NCBI GenBank assembly: GCA_963924555.1
Contig: OZ004582.1
Coordinates: 4,650,001 to 4,714,000 of the forward strand
Length of the DNA: 64,000 nt
Reading direction: 5' to 3'
DNA from: Crambe crambe
Lineage: Eukaryota; Porifera; Demospongiae; Poecilosclerida; Crambeidae
The notes beneath the pieces were generated by a model that saw only the letters and a program-made list of their open reading frames with translations, was not told where the DNA came from and searched no databases. Shown piece after piece: positions 53,390-64,000 of the stretch; the stretch's first letter is position 1; each line of letters starts with the position of its first letter. Position numbers and translations under genes: made by a program.

Positions 53390-56277
53390 TTTTCCATCAA
53401 CTGGATGTTTACGTTGTTATGTTAATTCATTTTTGACCTTTCATCGTAACCTTTCATCATGACCTCTTTGGTATAGCTATATATAATTATAGTTGAAACC
53501 TGCCCTTATAATGAGACCACTCCACCATAACTTCACAGTCACTAATCATTATAGACATACACTATTCACCAGGAAAATCACACAGCAACGGTTTCTCACC
53601 TGACGTGAACTCAAGACTTTGCACCATAGTTTCTTCAATGCACTTGCTGGTATACTAACAGTACTTACTAGTTTCAAGTAAAAGATCCCCTTAATGCTAT
53701 GTGTGCTCCACAAGGGCATACATTGATCATGCATGTGTTCCCTTGTGGTATAGCTTAGTAGAGTACCTAAAGGAAAAAATCATTATGTGACGGACAAAAG
53801 TGCCAATTTTTGTCAGAGTATTCCTTTAGGTATGTAGCTAATGTCAGGAAAATATCGGCTGCAAAAAATCAGTATTAAATGTGGTGGCTAGCTTTTCCGC
53901 TAGGAAGCATCTCAAAGTTGCTAAACCCTCTCTTTATTGTGATTGCAGCCACTTTCTAGTGATCATAGTCTCATCCCATGTCCATGCACCGAGAAACTTA
54001 GATTGGACTTATCATTAGAGCCAGCTAATTTATTTCAACAACAAAATTGATACCAAGTCCAGAAATGAGAGCGATCTTCTCCATACTGGCCCTCTGCCCT
54101 CTACAGTGCTGATTAATAGACCAGGGCAAAAATTAGGATCAGCTTTCATTTTTCTATTGTAACTGGTATTATGGGAGCACTATCACCAATGAGTGGGTGT
54201 TTTGTATTTTAATTAAGCAAATTAGTGGAAGTGTGGTGATGTTCTAACACAGTGGAACCCCTCACTGTGGACTCTCTGTATCAGATGTTTAAATGTTCCA
54301 GTCTGATGAATAAACTCATCAACATATTTATATTGTGTTAATTCATTTTTGACCTTTCATCATGACCTCTTTGGTATAGCCAAAATTATAGTGAAGCCTG
54401 TCTAATTGGACTCCTTATAATGAGACCACCCCTCTACTAAGGCCACTCCACCATATCCCAAGTAACTTCACAGTCACTAATCATTATAGACATACACTAT
54501 TCACCGGGAAAATCACAGAGCAACAGTTTCTCACCTGACATGAACTCAAGACTTTGCACCATAGTTTCTTCAAGGCACTTGCTGGTATACTAATATTAAT
54601 TACTAGTTTCAAGTAAAAGATCCCCTTCACAATAATAAGTTGTAGCTATGTGTGCTCCATAAGGGCATACATTGATCATGCGTGTGTTCCCTTGTGGTAT
54701 AGCTACTTCAAATGTACGTACTTGCATCACTGACCATGAGAGAGAATATGCAAGGGGTGGTTATGTCCCCTTGAAATATAGAGCAGGGGGATATGACTGT
54801 GCTTCTTGCTCTCTGAATGAACTAGCTTCTATGCAGGGATCTCAATGACGTCATCTCACAATGTGGTTCAATTTTCCATTTCCAACCCCTCCTTCCTCCT
54901 TAGCTATCTATGGATTAACCAACTTGCTTTTGCTTTCTTCAGTACCTAGGTTCTCCCCAGGTATCTTGAGGGCATAATGGGACATTATGTTGTTTTTGTT
55001 TTCTTTAACCGAATGGCTGATGAGGAATTTACAGGCCCCATGGGACTAATGGCCAGCCGCCTTCATCCCTTTCAAAGGATGCAGTGTCTTTACACTTCCT
55101 CAATTGAGGAGTGGAGCTGAGTGGACTCCATGATTCAGTAGATCCTGCCGGCTTGGTGGGAGTAGTGATCTAGGTCCATGAACTCACCACCATCACACTT
55201 GCACTGACCAACCAGGGTCACCCATCCATGCACTAACAAACTGCAGCTCCCCCTATTCTTATGAAATGATGGTAACTCAAGTCAGTATTAAATGTGGTGG
55301 CTAGCTTCTCTGCTAGGAAGCATCTCAAAATTGCTAAACCCTCTCTTTTATTGTGATTGTAGCCACTCTTTCTGGCTAATTTTAGCTCTGGTCTATTAAT
55401 CAGCACTTGTAGAGGGCAGAGGGCCAGTATGTAGAATATCGCTCTCATTTCTGGACTTGGTATCAATTTTGTTGTATGAATTAAACTAGCTGGCTCTAAT
55501 GACAAGTCCAATCTAAGTTTGTTGGTGCATGGACATGGGATGAGACTATGATCAGGATCAGCTTTCATTTTTCTATTGTAACTCGTATTATGGGAGCGCT
55601 AGCACCAATGAGTAAATCTAATTAAGCAAATTAGTGGAAGTGTGGTGATGTTCTAACACAGTGAAACCCCTCACTGTGGACTCTCTGTATCAAAGACACC
55701 CTCTATCCTGGATTCCCATACTAACATAGTGGAACTTCTCATTGTGGACTCACTGAGCCACTGTATCAAGGACACCCTACTATTAGCTATACTCATGGAG
55801 CAGAGATAGTGATATTTGCAGTATATAGCTATAAACTTGGTTTGTACACATATATTATGCTTTATTAAAACTATAAGGGAGTAGGAGGCATCACTATATA
55901 TTATGCTTTAGCAAGGAAGAAACAATATATCGAGGAAGATATAGTCTCCATTTATACTTCTATAAGAGAAGCCACAAACTATACATATTCTTAAAAAACA
56001 TTAGTCTTGTCAACAGAATCCGAATTGTGCATGTGTGCCGTGCATGGGTTAGCCCATCATGTATGGTACGCTTCAAAATTGCATGGTTTTTGTAGATAGT
56101 TAGAAAAGACTGGGAAGAGCTATAGAGCTTGTTACACAAAACTATAAGCTGTTATTAATGGTAAAGGGTTGATACAGAGTAGATCTAGGTAATAAAAGTG
56201 TAAACTCCATCCTGTAAATTGTTATAGCCAGCAGCAAAGCCTATGGTTTTTCTCTGTATATTATATGACTAAGGAAA
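53390..56277. other. Duplicated and partly inverted flank between D and E
   Basis: No gene is supported. 53,417-53,760 and 54,330-54,720 are direct copies (TTTGCACCATAGTTTCTTCA in both). 53,870-54,190 and 55,275-55,590 share both outer parts in the same orientation, but the central 180 bp or so is inverted between them. From about 55,950 the DNA parallels the blocks before C and D. A minus-strand open frame of 111 codons at 55,233-55,568 spans the inversion and shows no known motif. Confidence 0.65.
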
Positions 56278-58875
56278 ATGGCACAATTGCATAATTTTAT
56301 TGCTGACTTGACAATCCTGCTGATCTATTGGACAACTAGCTGTAAGTTAAAGAAGTCTGTATAGCTTTTAGTTGTTATAAGTAGTTAGCTACGTAGTATG
56401 CTGCTGACCTGTATCACCATCATGAACTATGGTCTAGAAGTCACTACTCACAAATGGAAAAAATGCACCAATTAACATGGAAGTCTCCACTTTAGCATAA
56501 CTAGTATCTAGCTAGTTTATGTACATGAAGGATGTAGCTAGCTATACATATGATCATTGACTGTTTAATTGATACTCTTCAGTCAATTACCTACTCCTCT
56601 GTCCCTATCACTTCTGAGTTAACTAGTGCATAATGTGTTGTCGTATTGCTTTAGCTTTTTTTTTCAAGAACAATCATTCAATTACACTTCTTAATATTAA
56701 CAGAGAATTATATTAGCAGAGATCACTTATTCAAATAGTGATATGTGCCAGGATCAAATGGGCACTTACTGCAGCAGCATTTCTGAACTCACTGTTGCAT
56801 TACTTAACAATTTCAATCACTCTATCACTGCATTCCTCTATTAATTCCTAGCCAAGTTTAGATAACTAGCTATTATAATGAAAAACAACACACATGTTAT
56901 ATAGTTTGGAGGGCCAATTGGTTTGGGAAGGGTAGCTACTACATTTTGAGATGAAAACAAGTTGGTATGTATCTATAATACAGCAGCAACAACAACATGA
57001 GGGTCCTGATGCATTTCATTTTATAGGGGAAATGGACTTTAGGGACTTTGAGTAGTGTGGTATAATAATTATACCATTTCTGAAATAGCTAGCTAATGGC
57101 GTGAAAGATGATGAATGACCAGGATTTTAGAATCGCTGAAAAATGACACTGCTTATCTTCTGCTCTTCATACTTGAGTCCTAGCACATTGAAGGTGTTCT
57201 GTCTTTGAGACAGAAGTTGTTGATTAACATCATAAGCATCTTAATACAATTATCATAGGTGATGGTGCTGTGACCCTGTTTCCTCCCTTTTATCTTGCTT
57301 GTGATGGAGAAGAATTAGAGTTCACTTGTACTGCTAGGCAAACATTTGTGCGCTGGAATATTACTACTCCTCAAATGGACTACCCGACTCAAGAATCAAC
57401 CAAATTTCATGTGGGGATGCCTCCCTTTGCCACACAGGATGATGTATTTACATTCAGAACAGCGTCTTACAATAATTCCACTATGGAACTAGTGACTACT
57501 GTAAGTGTGAATGCCAGAGAGGGACTAGATGGAACTATGGTGCAATGTCTTACATTTGTGTCAGGAGAGACAAGGAAGGAAACTGCAATCATGAGAGTCC
57601 CAGGTTATTACAGATAAATCATGTTTTCATAATAGCTGTAGCTATATCCCATGTGAATTAATAAATGCAGTACATAGATAATTATGCTAAGGGTATATAG
57701 GTGTTTAGGATTATTATTATTACTGACTGTGTGACTACGGTACATCAATTATGTACTACAACATGCATGGCTGTACAATATTAAGATTAGCTGTATCTAT
57801 GCTTGCAGGTGTACCTACACCATTTAATCTGACGCTCCCTGCTACCTTGGACCTGGAATTTGGGAGGACTAGTATTATAGTTGTTAATGTGTCCTGGATT
57901 CAACAGGATGGTGCTGACTATGATATCTTCATTAGTCCACCTATTCCATATAGTAATACTTCAAGGACTAGCATAATCATACCCAATGTCCCCTTCAATG
58001 TCCAGTACAATGTCACTGTAGTGGCTCACAGATGTCATGGTGGCTACACTTCATCTGCCATGCTGAATCACAGTGAGTCTAATACAGCAGCTGTGATTAT
58101 TCTTATCACTAACTTGTAGTTAACAGTGTACAATTATTCCAGAAATCTTCCATATTCATGTAGGTCGTTGTGTCTTCCCCTCCATCGATCCAAGTTTGAG
58201 ATTCTTAACTGATGTAGTGAGTGTGGCATCAGCTCCTGAAGGCACTGTCATCTCATTCTCATGCAATAATGATAATCAAGTATTGGATGGCATAGATAAT
58301 GCCACGTGTATTGAGGGTAGGTGGAGTCCAGATATTGATGGTGTCATGTGCAGAGGTGAGTAGCTCTTTATTGTCATCATATGGAATGGTTGAGTGTTCC
58401 TATTCTAGGGGAGTGTGGATTGCCTGTATTTGGTGATAGTGTGGTGATCATAGATGATGACTTGAATGCTACATTTGAAGGATCTTACTTCAACTTCACT
58501 TGTGCTGATGGTTTGAGTCCCACTGCTATCATAAGAACTATCTGTTCTCAGAACGGCTCCTGGAATCCAGATCCTGCACATGCCATATGTGTTAATACTA
58601 GTGATAATCCCACCACTGGTATTGACGAAACTCCTCCTCCAGTGTCAACATCAACCATACTGACTGTGATATGCAGTATTGGATTTTTAATTGTGGGACT
58701 GGTTGGTGGGATTGCTTGTCGTTCTCTGGTCGCATGTTCCTGTAATAGAGATGAACACAACCTCCAACCCAGCCAGCCTCAACCTGATCCATTTTATGAG
58801 GCCATTATACTCCCAGATAAAGAAAAATTGGAACTAAAAGACAATGTAGCATATGGACACTTCCAAGTAAATTAA
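56278..58875 (+). CDS. Receptor E: Ig-FN3-CCP-CCP membrane protein
   Basis: Exons are 56278-56341 (signal peptide, MAQLHNFIADLTILLIYW), 57259-57603 (Ig-like), 57809-58072 (FN3), 58164-58355 (CCP1) and 58409-58875 (CCP2, TM, tail, TAA), giving 443 residues, all phase 1. The Ig part has LACDGEELEFTC, RWN and MVQC. CCP1 ends RWSPDIDGVMC; CCP2 has SWNPDPAHAIC. The TM follows PPVSTSTILTV. The tail carries FYEAIILPDKEKLELK and DNVAYGHFQVN. The donor after the Ig exon is gttatt, where other copies have gtgatt; the same gttatt donor is used in the tail of F, so it may still work. The gene looks intact. Gene F starts 480 bp downstream without its own 5' exons, and the FN3 donor of E is in phase with the CCP1 acceptor of F. 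Confidence 0.87.
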
Positions 58876-58971
58876 TTTTAATCAACTGGATGTTTATGTT
58901 GGTTGTTAATATTGTGTTCATTCATTTCAGACTTTCATTATGACCTCATTGGTATAGCTATATATAACAAG

Positions 58972-59249
58972 TGAGAGTAAAAACATTTCATCTAAATGAA
59001 AGAGTGATGTAGGCTACGGAAACAAGGTGCTAGTATATACTTCATAAGCTCTACAGAATTGACAAACCCTACATTGACATAAACCTACATAGCTGCTGCC
59101 ATATTATCCTTTTGGCTGCACCTTGCAGCAATGTAGGTTTATGTCAATGTAGGGTTTGTCAATTCTGTAGAGCTTATGAAGTACATACCAGCACCTTGTT
59201 TCCGTACGTTTTATAGTCATGTACTCAAGCCTAAATGTTTTTACTCTCA
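58972..59249. mobile_element. Palindromic element between E and F
   Basis: TGAGAGTAAAAACATTT at the left is mirrored at the right end. Inner arms of about 90 bp starting ACGGAAACAAGGTGCT and including AATTGACAAACCCTACATTG are near-perfect inverted repeats. It is non-coding. It ends about 100 bases before the point where the truncated FN3 copy of F begins. Confidence 0.88.
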
Positions 59250-59354
59250 TTGTTTGCATACTTTTTCAAGGGGCGTGGCTAAGGATGTCGAGAACGACCC
59301 TTTACCAAATAAGCTTACCACGCCCACCGCAACTCAGCAGGACAGTTTTTTTCT

Positions 59355-62300
59355 CCATTTAATCTGACGCTCCCTGCTACCTTGGACCTGGAATTTGGGA
59401 GGACTAGTATTATAGTTGTTAATGTGTCCTGGATTCAACAGGATGGTGCTGACTATGATATCTTCATTAGTCCACCTATTCCATATAGTAATACATACCC
59501 AATGTCCCCTTCAATGTCCAGTACAATGTCACTGTAGTGGCTCACAGATGTCATGGCAGCTACACTTCATCTGCCACACTATATTATAGTGAGTCTAATC
59601 AGAATGGTCAGCAGCTCTTCCAGAAACTTTCCATATCCATGTAGGTCACTGTATCTTCCCCTCCATCGATCCAAGTTTGAGATTCTTAACTGATGTTGTG
59701 GGTGTGGCATCAGCTCCCGAAGGCACTGTCATTTCATTCTCATGTAATAATGAGAATCAAGTATTGGATGGCATAGATAATGCCACATGTAATGAGGGTA
59801 GGTGGAGTCCAGATATTGATGGTGTCATGTGCAGAGGTAAGTAGCTCTTCATCCTTATCATAATCATATGAAATGGTTGAGCATTCCTATTCCAGGGGAA
59901 TGTGGGTTACCTGTGTTTGGAGATGATATGGTGATCATAAATGATGACATCAATGCTACATCCGAAGGATCTTCCTTCAACTTCACTTGTGCTGATGCCA
60001 CTGCTATCATCAGAACCGTCTGCTCAGCAAACGGCTCCTGGAATCCAGATCCTGCACATGCCATATATGTCAATTCTAGTGCTAATCCCACTACTGGTAG
60101 TATTCATAATAATATGACAGCAGGAGCGGATGACACAATCATCATTATTGGTATGATGCATTACACCTTACAAGTTCTGCTTACACATCTCCTTTAGACT
60201 TTCTGATTATTATATTAGGAGTTGTAATTGCAAGAACTATCAATTAGAATGCCATAGCTGCCCCTAAAAATATCGATTATAATGGTACCAAGATTTAACA
60301 ATGTTTTCTAGGGGGAAAACAGTATGTAATGCCCATAAAACTAATGTCACTCCATATATAACTTTGTTATGATCTCCACCCCCTAAACATTTCCTTTATC
60401 TGAATCATGGTCACACATTCTGCTCTGCCAGCATAATGTGCCTCTTTATTGCTGTAGGAGGAGCAGTCGCTGGTGGGATCATTGTCGTGATCTTGGTCGT
60501 TATCATGGTGATATCTCTTATACTATTGAAGAAAATTAGAAGTAATATTTTTATGCTTTGTAAACCACCTCTTTCATCTTGTAGGTGAGACAAGAAAGAA
60601 AAGAAGGTTATTATGTAATAATTAAGCGCACCCTAAGCAAATGTCAAGTGGCAATTCTTCAATCACGCTTTTGTGGATTAATTGTGAACTATTGTGTCCC
60701 TCACATGTTTTCTATTATTTAGGACTGTGGAGCAGCATAATTATCAAGGTGTCAATTTTGAGGTAATCATAATAACATAATGTATAAATTAATAACCGAG
60801 TTATGAATAAGCATTGTTTCATTTCATTGATAATGAAACCATTTCTTATGTCAAGCATACAATGATTAATCTTGTATAATATCAATTCATAAGATGTTAC
60901 CGAGTGAACACAGCAGGACTGTACATGATGTTCCTGTTAGTCCTGCACCCCAGTCTTCTTCACAAGAAAATGTACTAACTGTATGTAAACTTATAATCCT
61001 GTACATAGATATTGCTAAGCATACTTATTTTTTGTGTTCTATCATTCATAAGATGTTATCGAGTTCACATGATGTTCCTGCAGAGTACAGCACCATCAAT
61101 CATGCTCGTACAGCCAAATCTTCAAAAAGAAGTCCTACAACTGTACGTACATACGTCATACGTCAGCATCTATAACAGTTGCTATTTCATAAATAGGTAT
61201 TATATTATGTGCTCCATACAGTCTTTTTAGGGAGACTATTTTGATGGTATGTATCTGCAGAGGCATAACTCTATGCTATATGAGTGATTCATGTGTAATT
61301 TGTATGGCCATTAAGGTAACACTTGGTGAACGTGCCGGTAAGCAAGTGTCATTTCAAGGGTATGTCATTCAAGGGTATGTCAGCATTGCAATAGATTCAA
61401 TTGTAAAAGGGCTGTGGTCTCTGCCATTTTGTAGGCAGAAAAACACTGCTATATAATATCCATTAGTAGCTAACTAGCTAGATTCAAATAGTTTTTATGG
61501 TAGCAATCACATCACTTTTACTGAATTGGAGATAGTACCAAAGATACAGTTACAGCTACTTCTATTTCTTTCAGAAACTCCGTAGTACTGCCAATCCATC
61601 CAGTGAGGATAAAGTTTTAGACACTAGTGGTTTGATATATGCTGATCTTGCTTCCACCAAGAAGAAACCTTCTGTTATTACAATGCCACCCCCCATCATT
61701 GAGCCTGTAGTTTATTCTGACATAACTGGAACCATTCCTCTTAAAACTGCTGCAACTGCACCTCCTAGCAGGCCACAGAAAAATCCAGGTAATAAGGGTA
61801 TAGCTGTTTTAATGTGTTTACAAGGTTGTAGACAAAAAAGATAATGTGGGGAGGGGGACTTTTGACATTAATAAACACTAGTTAGTTATTGGCTATGAGG
61901 TGGGGCTATCTAATTGCTGTGATTTAACAGATGCAGCATGATATTATCCCAGAAGCCCCCCCAAGTCCCCCCTTGTATACAGCAGTGGTTTATTCTACAC
62001 CTACGTACTACGTATACTTATTAGAACTTGTAGACTAGTAAAATCCTTTGGTTAATTATTAGCTATGATTTTCAGATTCTCTACTGGATCTTAATATGTT
62101 GCTAATCCAAATTCGTGAAGTGACATCTGATTGGTATTCATATACAAAAGCCATTGGAGTACCTGCCCAAATGATGGATGAGATTGATAACATGCAGCTA
62201 AATGACTATCACAAACTAGTGGAGGCACTGGATTACTGGTTCCACATCCATTCAAAAGATCCTGCCCCTACTTGGAGGGAGTTGGCACATGGGTTAAAGG

Positions 62301-63029
62301 TCATTGGTCATGCAAAGCTTGCTGATGATATTATGAAAGTATACACCACAGGTAAGAATTTATATTAGAAATCTCTGATATAAAGGCTGGACTGTTTCCA
62401 AACAGAACTACTGGTTATCATAAGTTATGGTTTGGGATTAGCTACTGAGATTGTATCTCTCTGGGGATTATTGCTGAATTGAAATTTGAAAACATGTTTA
62501 TGGCCATGGTAAAGTCTGTTTCAATATTAGTGTGTACAGTCTCCATGGAAATTTAAGCAACCTTGTGCCTGGTGTATACTTGCTACAGTACAACCTCTTC
62601 ATCTGGAACCTTATCCTGGAACCTTGTCTATCATTTATTGGGATTAGGAAATATGTACTATAAACATTTATTGACAGTGGTTTGCACAACAATCAGTAGC
62701 AGCTACACCATTCTGGCATGTTTGTGCTAGCTACGAAAACATAAATACCGGTAGTGCAGCATAACCACAACATTAATACTTCAGTTATCAGGACTGTAGC
62801 ACTTATCAGACAGCCTGGGAAATAGTTTGGATAAAGATGTCCAGATAACCGAGACTCCACTGTAATATGAACGTTGTTTTGTGACTACTTATGTATACTG
62901 GATGGCTAACACTGTTGTTCATTAATAGGTGACCTTCCCATAGTGGTGGATGATAGTAGTCTACCTCCTTCTACTCGGCGAACTTCAGAATCCCCTCCTC
63001 CTATACCTCCAAGATTAGATAACATTTAG
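59355..63029 (+). CDS. Receptor F: CCP-CCP-TM with ITIM pair and Death domain
   Basis: A truncated FN3 copy (59,355-59,587, no acceptor, about 20 bases missing inside) is followed by good exons: 59645-59836 (CCP1), 59896-60150 (CCP2 plus stalk), 60458-60541 (TM, IIVVILVVIMVISLILL), 60585-60606, 60723-60762, 60894-60980, 61053-61142, 61575-61788, 62076-62351 and 62929-63029 (TAG). All phases agree. The exon at 61575 holds LIYADL (61,632) and VVYSDI (61,707), both fitting the ITIM pattern [SIVL]-x-Y-x-x-[ILV], 25 residues apart. Exon 62076 encodes a Death domain: SDWYSYTKAIGVP, MDEIDNM, LVEALDYWF, TWRELAHGLKVIGHAKLADD. The last exon ends in SPPPIPPRL, an SH3-ligand type motif. CCP2 lacks its fourth Cys (HAIYVN). 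There is no signal peptide or Ig of its own; it probably uses the 5' exons of E (677 residues in total) or is expressed from an unseen start. A signalling receptor, inferred. Confidence 0.8.
62584..62864. mobile_element. Degenerate pogo-like MITE in F intron
   Basis: TACAGTACAACCTCTTCATC at the left and CCGAGACTCCACTGTA at the right, with TA borders and CCAGATAAC near the right end. It is similar in type to 38,833-39,238 but more decayed. It lies in the last intron of F. Confidence 0.6.
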
Positions 63030-63071
63030 TTATGTTTCAATCCTTGATTTAGATACCAACTAGCTGTCTAC

Positions 63072-63137
<66 letters not shown>

Positions 63138-63739
63138 GAGTGTTAGTTGTTTACATAATTCTGATTAATGGTATGCAATTTATTTAATTGCTAAGATTCC
63201 AGACATAATAGCTAAGTGATTCATTCATGGACAGAAAAAAAGCTCTGCCAATAACAAGGACCAAGTAGCTAGCTAGCTGAATAAGTAGAGCCTGAAAGCC
63301 TGCTGAGCTAACTGTATACATGTAGGAATGAAAGCTGCATGGCTAATACATGTAAATAAATACGTATGTCAAGGAGTATGTAGAAACTGATTGATACAAT
63401 CATCCTTCACAAGGATGCTAGTAGCTACATATAAATGTGAACCTGTAATGCTTGCCATAAAGCACTTAGCTAGCTAGATAGTGTAGAGGTGACCTACTAG
63501 GCCAACAATTCACTCAAATGCTTACAATCCACTTTGATAAAAGGTAGTGGCAGAAAAAGTGCTATGCACACAACACTGTTATTACAACGTGGGCAACCTG
63601 GGCATGATATAGTAACCATATATAAAAATGCTGACCACATGACAAACATAACAACCACTCCAGCATTTCCCATAATTAGATATCTACAAAAGCACATGAC
63701 TGAAATTCCATAAGGAAAGAATTTCCTGACAGCATCTTC
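63030..63739. other. 3' flank of F with ATT microsatellite
   Basis: The stretch includes an uninterrupted ATT repeat of about 21 units (63,073-63,137). Nothing else is recognised. Confidence 0.6.
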
Positions 63740-63946
63740 ATGGAAAAGAGCTCTGTGGCCATTATCTTTCTTCTAATCACCATAACATATTTCACTCCTA
63801 GTCTTTCATGGAGTCCAAGTGAGTCAAGACACCAGACTACAGAAGCTGCCACTCGAGCTTACCAAGCACTTGAAGGCATCTTTAACTACTACTGGAAATC
63901 TGATCCTCTTGCCACCAAAATCAAGTTCCTGTTCATATGTGGACAA
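63740..63946 (+). CDS. First exon of a secreted protein (runs off window)
   Basis: ATG at 63,740 opens MEKSSVAIIFLLITITYFTP, a good signal peptide. The following residues include AATRAYQALEGIFNYYWKSD and FLFICGQ, then a donor at 63,947 (gtaggt) or 63,951 (gtgggt). The aromatic and Cys-Gly-Gln pattern reminds me of secreted glycoside hydrolases such as family 76, but one exon is too little to be sure. It does not resemble the receptor families next to it. Confidence 0.5.
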
Positions 63947-64000
63947 GTAGGTGGGTGGGGGAAACCGCGTTCAGAGAATGAATGCAGTTGTAATGATCAT

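Follow-up and report, generated by a model that had tools for sequence, protein, structure and literature searches.

Exons of the receptor tail and ectodomain in the window

The window, the whole stretch of 64,000 nucleotides that was analysed (C3:4650001-4714000, in a genome whose 119 contigs total 143 Mb), carries tandem related receptor units near its right end. The tail of interest belongs to unit 3 and, like all the exons described in this section, is encoded on the + strand. It starts with a transmembrane (TM) exon in phase 1 (60458-60541) and runs through two short juxtamembrane exons (60585-60606, and 60723-60762 with NYQGV), exon e4 (60894-60980) and exon e5 with AEYSTI (61053-61142) to the ITIM exon (61575-61788; phase 0 to 1), which is bordered by the acceptor tctttcag and the donor gtaata. 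LIYADL (61632-61649) and VVYSDI (61707-61724) both lie in this exon and both satisfy the ITIM rule that was applied, [SIVL]xYxx[ILV]; the distance of 25 residues between the tyrosines, given in a preliminary description of this DNA, was obtained again on recalculation. In-phase joins then lead to the predicted Death-domain exon (62076-62351; phase 1 to 1), assigned by Pfam and profile comparison, and to the last exon (62929-63029), which ends in ESPPPIPPRLDNI and a stop codon (PPPIPPRLDNI in summary form). The proline-rich end that had been described is therefore present as PPPIPPR, which fits PxxPxR and which we take to be of the SH3-ligand type. When joined, the unit 3 tail is one open frame with GT-AG borders, and both other frames contain stops.

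Two exon-like pieces in the tail (61231-61246, 16 bases, and 61316-61337, 22 bases) were rejected for joint use, as stops come in when both are included. The tyrosine pair was also considered as an ITAM and rejected: the tyrosine motifs of an ITAM are spaced by 6-12 residues, and a spacing of 25 is too wide. The tyrosine exon of duplicates B and C, described below, is absent from the window, where the DNA at 61341-61362 is without a matching stretch. A run of ATT repeats was noted by eye directly behind the gene's stop codon (about 63072-63137).

Upstream of the tail, unit 2 is complete, with a signal-peptide exon that ends in phase 1 (56278-56341), an Ig-like exon (57259-57603), an FN3-type exon (57809-58072) and two CCP exons (58164-58355 and 58409-58618). 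The CCP repeats that had been attributed to the gene found support from Pfam in this unit, where Sushi scored 22.2 bits in the second exon, above the cut-off of 20.7, and 19.9 bits in the first, just below it. Unit 3 has two CCP-type exons homologous to those of unit 2 (59645-59836 and 59896-60150), but these, the ones nearest to the tail, were unmatched in Pfam up to E 5. The second of them has lost its last cysteine to tyrosine (AIYVN, where the other copies have AICVN), and they are preceded by an FN3-type exon with an interrupted frame (59352-59581), which was excluded from the model; the interrupted exon and the cysteine loss are both common to duplicate B. Between units 2 and 3 an inverted repeat, seen by eye at about 59010-59205, may be a small mobile element beside the unit 3 break. 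The Ig-like and FN3-type exons of unit 2 were also without Pfam matches up to E 5. Their counterparts in the relative on C13 described below gave Ig_3 at E 0.19 and fn3 at E 0.0011, under the cut-off, the latter exon being 69% identical to that of unit 2. 'Ig-like' is thus a weak label, given the lack of a Pfam match in the window and the E value of the C13 copy. For the family as a whole, membership of which also includes the Ig-like and FN3-type exons, Sushi was supported in unit 2, on C13 and on C5, and fn3 was above the cut-off on C5 only and below it on C13.

The window copy is the untidiest of the family, with its broken FN3-type exon, lost CCP cysteine and missing tyrosine exon, and for a usable ectodomain it would have to rely on the adjacent unit 2. 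The phase-1 exons of that unit join the unit 3 TM exon without a stop, either directly or via the unit 3 CCP exons (662 or 811 residues). The second CCP exon of unit 2 has a phase-1 donor at 58618, or can be read through to 58866 (58409-58866) into a TM segment and short tail of its own, which gives 441 residues and is open at the end. Judged from the exon phases, the locus may therefore produce two tails on one ectodomain by alternative splicing.

The probable Death-domain exon and the extent of the family

The preliminary description had placed a Death domain in the exon after the ITIM exon and had proposed that this be compared with Death, DED and CARD profiles. The exon is in phase, and with the exon alone Death was the only Pfam match (E 0.00085, profile positions 4-82 of 86), neither DED nor CARD being among the matches; however, its score of 19.9 bits is below the curated cut-off of 22.6 bits for Pfam Death (PF00531), and the assignment stands as a sub-threshold one. 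The same was true of the Death exons of duplicate B, copy C and the C13 relative (17.9, 13.6 and 14.7 bits). Within the whole window tail Death scored 16.0 bits (E 0.013), nothing in Pfam matched the Death-like exon on C5 up to E 5, and in the whole C13 and C5 model proteins Death was unmatched up to E 1. The window exon was also absent among the 150 Death matches that were scored genome-wide, out of 965 candidates.

Comparison of profiles added further evidence. A profile built from five family members was aligned by hhalign with one built from five other Death-like domains in this genome, and the probability was 97.5% over 71 columns; both profiles are shallow, the E value of such a comparison is not that of a database search, and at least three of the five other domains lie above the Pfam cut-off. 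In a local search of 13 domains, partly picked by earlier matches, the five-member profile clearly matched L029, L036, L037, L035 and L033, and matched L001-L008, the strongest Pfam Death loci, at best weakly. Against solved structures Fas was top at E 0.13, short of significance, and a DnaJ protein was next at 0.19; when the profile was widened to seven members, a thioredoxin protein took first place (E 0.016), and Fas, RIPK1 and FADD were in a group of 21 weak matches. From these scores the last-but-one exon is likely, though not proven, to be a Death domain.

The ITIM-Death receptor is not a single gene but a family on three contigs. The relative on C13 lies on the minus strand (C13:716194-701682) and was modelled with 16 exons and 760 residues, in the order candidate signal peptide, Ig-like, FN3, CCP, CCP, TM, tyrosine sites, Death, PPPLPPK and PPPVPRK. 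Its tyrosine sites are, in order, EEYSTL, EEYSEI, EQYSVL, EQYSVI, LVYADL and VVYSDI; the last two are the counterparts of the window pair, LVYADL standing for LIYADL and VVYSDI having the same letters, and their tyrosines are 24 residues apart. All the inner borders of this model are AG and GT, with a few weak donors (gttagt, gtatct, gtcaga), and it may miss exons in the 2.7 kb between two of its tyrosine exons. The C5 relative (C5:8572088-8575481) was modelled with 12 exons and 627 residues, its very short exons x5-x7 being uncertain, and has a signal plus Ig-like exon, FN3, CCP, TM, four tyrosine sites, a Death-like exon and a last exon with PPPIPPK. Its FN3 and CCP scored 32.5 and 21.6 bits in Pfam, both above the cut-offs, its Death-like exon is about 30% identical to the other Death exons of the family, and its four tyrosine sites (SEYSIL, LRYAEV, VEYAAV and VEYAAV) are all canonical ITIMs. 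The phases of the ITIM, Death and last exons are equal in the window and in the C13 and C5 relatives, and with this third locus, on C5, we find the architecture convincing. An ITIM pair and a Death domain in one receptor tail, as had been proposed from the window, are thus conserved in these two relatives, which keep order and phases alike. The conservation of both tyrosines that had been suggested as a check was likewise found, as LVYADL/VVYSDI on C13 and as ITIMs on C5, its scope being relatives inside one genome.

Closer to the window, duplicate B lies at C3:4.83-4.84 Mb and copy C at C3:4.871-4.882 Mb, and both have the extra tyrosine exon (VEYNTL in B and AEYNTL in C). In copy C the roughly 12.7 kb that precede the CCP exons yielded neither an Ig-like nor an FN3 exon, so that its ectodomain is only partly accounted for. 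The stretch 54417-64000 is duplicated at C3:4.829-4.843 Mb with an identity of 95.2% over 54417-58956, 99.2% over 58956-61341 and 94.1% over 61362-64000, which looks as if the middle tract had recently been converted.

Tail searches in which 124 of 124 and 116 of 151 candidates were scored placed the ITIM exon at four loci (the window, B, C and C13), and the proline motif recurs in the window, in B, C and locus D, at the C13 loci and on C5. Of the 36 copies in the Ig-like exon family, C3 has 9 and C13 has 27. Other Ig-like copies may carry other tails, an arrangement that would presumably recall the paired receptors of vertebrates. Two C13 loci, F and G, were rejected as members, their Death exons having no splice acceptor and no recognisable ITIM exon being present in about 6 kb upstream; H, a last exon on C13, and D, with half a Death exon on C3, were also kept outside the family count, and all four are read as remnants.

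An SHP-type phosphatase, conservation of the ITIM pair and rival explanations

A search of the same genome for an SHP-like phosphatase, suggested in the preliminary description, was successful. A gene on C18 encodes SH2-SH2-phosphatase, of which 518 residues were translated (the C-terminal tail lies outside the model). The protein has two SH2 stretches and a Y_phosphatase domain with the active site HCSAGIGRTG, and scored 660 bits over 516 residues against residues 1-526 of PTPN11 and 572 bits against PTPN6. By these matches the gene is an SHP-type phosphatase. SH2 exons are numerous in the genome (135 matches), with a dense array at C5:1468041-1522148, and large clusters of tyrosine-phosphatase exons were seen on C9, C12 and C13. 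Together with the SHP gene, the abundance of SH2, PTP and Death exons marks the genome as that of an animal, and our impression is of a sponge-like one.

Both the ITIM exon and the Death exon are under constraint. Between the window and the C13 relative dS was 1.30 and dN 0.19 for the ITIM core (36 aligned codons of the 71-residue exon), and 1.29 and 0.21 for the Death exon; such low dN values at these values of dS are what translated exons under constraint should show. In the ITIM exon 34 of the 63 aligned positions are identical, and identity is concentrated in the motifs, at 11 of 12 motif positions against 23 of 51 in the rest of the exon (hypergeometric P 0.003).

These figures bear directly on whether the ITIM pair next to the Death domain arose by chance. 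When each tail was counted alone, shuffling the window tail 100,000 times produced at least two ITIMs in about 1.4-1.5% of cases, the observed number was reached in 4.2% of shuffles of the C13 tail, and the four ITIMs of the 156-residue C5 tail were reached in 1 of 100,000. The window copy alone is thus only moderately surprising, and it is conservation that makes the case. A control with 11 other Death loci gave single ITIM-like matches upstream in sense exon-like pieces at 6 loci and in antisense at 4, and two different motifs at 2 (L004 and L065); antisense matches also occur upstream of the window and copy C. A lone ITIM-like motif therefore means little, and what stands out is the presence of at least two ITIMs in the exon directly before the Death exon and their conservation in relatives. 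Although the shuffles and the control leave some room for coincidence, the motifs form islands of conservation in sequences whose synonymous divergence is close to saturation, and on C5 four sites occupy the same exon context; we regard a chance origin as very improbable. One of the control loci, L065 (C9:2088526-2091768), has the ITIM-like VEYSAL in an open stretch that precedes its Death exon, with unclear exon borders. A second explanation would accept the family as real and take the window copy to be decaying, a recent duplicate whose tail is no longer joined to a working ectodomain. This would account for the broken FN3-type exon, the lost cysteine and the missing tyrosine exon, and the comparison with duplicate B, which gave six non-synonymous and no synonymous differences, points the same way and may mean relaxed constraint in young duplicates. 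However, the tail is open with GT-AG borders, it is joined without a stop by the complete phase-1 exons of unit 2, and over the tail dN against copy C is lower than dS (0.034 and 0.087; from e4, e5 minus its first two residues, e8 minus indel residues, e9 and e10, leaving out the TM and two short exons). Over 61534-63080, introns included, the window and copy C are 82% identical. Decay of the window copy seems improbable to us on this evidence.

The main rival concerns what the tyrosines do. The array could be a strip on which SH2 adaptors or kinases dock in general, in place of SHP; the receptor would then activate, acting as a scaffold together with its proline motif and Death domain, and the name ITIM would be misleading. 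Four further sites of the C13 relative (EEYSTL, EEYSEI, EQYSVL and EQYSVI) fail the ITIM rule at position -2, the window has a similar site in AEYSTI, and the abundance of SH2 exons and the recurrence of the proline motif in the family would also fit an activating scaffold. Against this, both of the sites with the best conservation are canonical ITIMs, as are all four on C5, and a phosphatase of SHP type is present in the genome. We hold the scaffold explanation to be unlikely, less so than decay or chance.

Proposed working of the receptor and its relation to known systems

The reading that we prefer, with a probability of roughly 0.55, is that of a receptor family with an Ig-like/FN3/CCP ectodomain and one TM, in the tail of which a tyrosine array with at least two ITIMs is followed by a Death domain and, at the C terminus, by a proline motif, and the output of which is most likely braked by SHP. 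The support for it is made less firm by the Death scores and the non-canonical C13 sites. Binding of a ligand would cluster the receptor, upon which a tyrosine kinase would phosphorylate the tyrosine array. The ITIM pair would then dock the genome-encoded SHP-type phosphatase through its two SH2 domains and open it, and the Death domain beside the ITIMs would recruit a Death adaptor, so that SHP, placed adjacent to the Death complex, would set the output, most likely as a brake. Phosphorylation, docking of SHP, the sign of the signal and a Death partner are all steps that we infer, and the interpretation given in the preliminary description is partly supported.

The nearest known systems share parts of this design. 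According to PMC8631942, Y257 and Y282 of BTLA are spaced by 25 residues, its motif is IVYASL, and alanine at pY+1 is given for BTLA and several SHP1-recruiting receptors; for PD-1, PMC7078208 gives Y223/Y248 as the tyrosine pair. Receptors of the BTLA/PD-1/SIRP-alpha type resemble the present one in having a single TM, an Ig-type ectodomain and two tyrosine motifs, here 24-25 residues apart, with an SHP-type enzyme also encoded in the genome. LIYADL and LVYADL also share alanine at pY+1 with the BTLA motif, a resemblance of sequence only. In contrast to that type, the tail here continues with a Death domain and then a proline motif, and the ectodomain has FN3 and CCP. Fas/CD95 is alike in being a single-pass receptor with a cytoplasmic Death domain, and was the top, non-significant, match among solved structures, but here the ITIMs are on a separate exon before the Death domain and the ectodomain is of the Ig-like/FN3/CCP kind. 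Membership of the TNFRSF was rejected, as Pfam gave Sushi and fn3 and zero TNFR cysteine repeats.

Some contact between ITIMs and Death domains is already known, since an ITAM/ITIM-like site around Tyr291 inside the Death domain of CD95 is reported in PMC4572867. For two sponges PMC6208332 describes genes that combine FnIII and Sushi, genes with a DEATH domain and one in which Ig domains occur with a CARD; unlike the present family, these immune-type genes had neither an ITIM tail nor the combination of ITIM and Death in the sections of that article available to us. In the accessible literature on ITIMs with a Death domain, on sponges, on invertebrates and on amphioxus, no such receptor was found, nor any description of an ITIM array that precedes a Death domain as a separate element; subscription journals are thinly covered there, and this is weak evidence of absence.

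A wider reading is possible, though we hold it more tentatively than the preferred one and at somewhat less than even odds: that an early-branching animal has BTLA-like ITIM-SHP signalling wired to a Death domain in one tail, as an SHP-gated Death receptor, with related ectodomains on ITIM-Death and other tails, like the paired receptors of vertebrates. The receptor would then be an early animal one, as had been supposed in the preliminary description. If this is true, the logic of ITIM and SHP is not bound to vertebrate-style immunity, inhibitory tyrosine signalling and Death-domain assembly are united in one molecule, and the origin of checkpoint-type signalling is open to direct test. The 36 Ig-like exons and the four loci with an ITIM exon raise the question of paired receptors outside vertebrates. 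The Ig-like exons on C3 and C13 form a candidate paired-receptor-like cluster.
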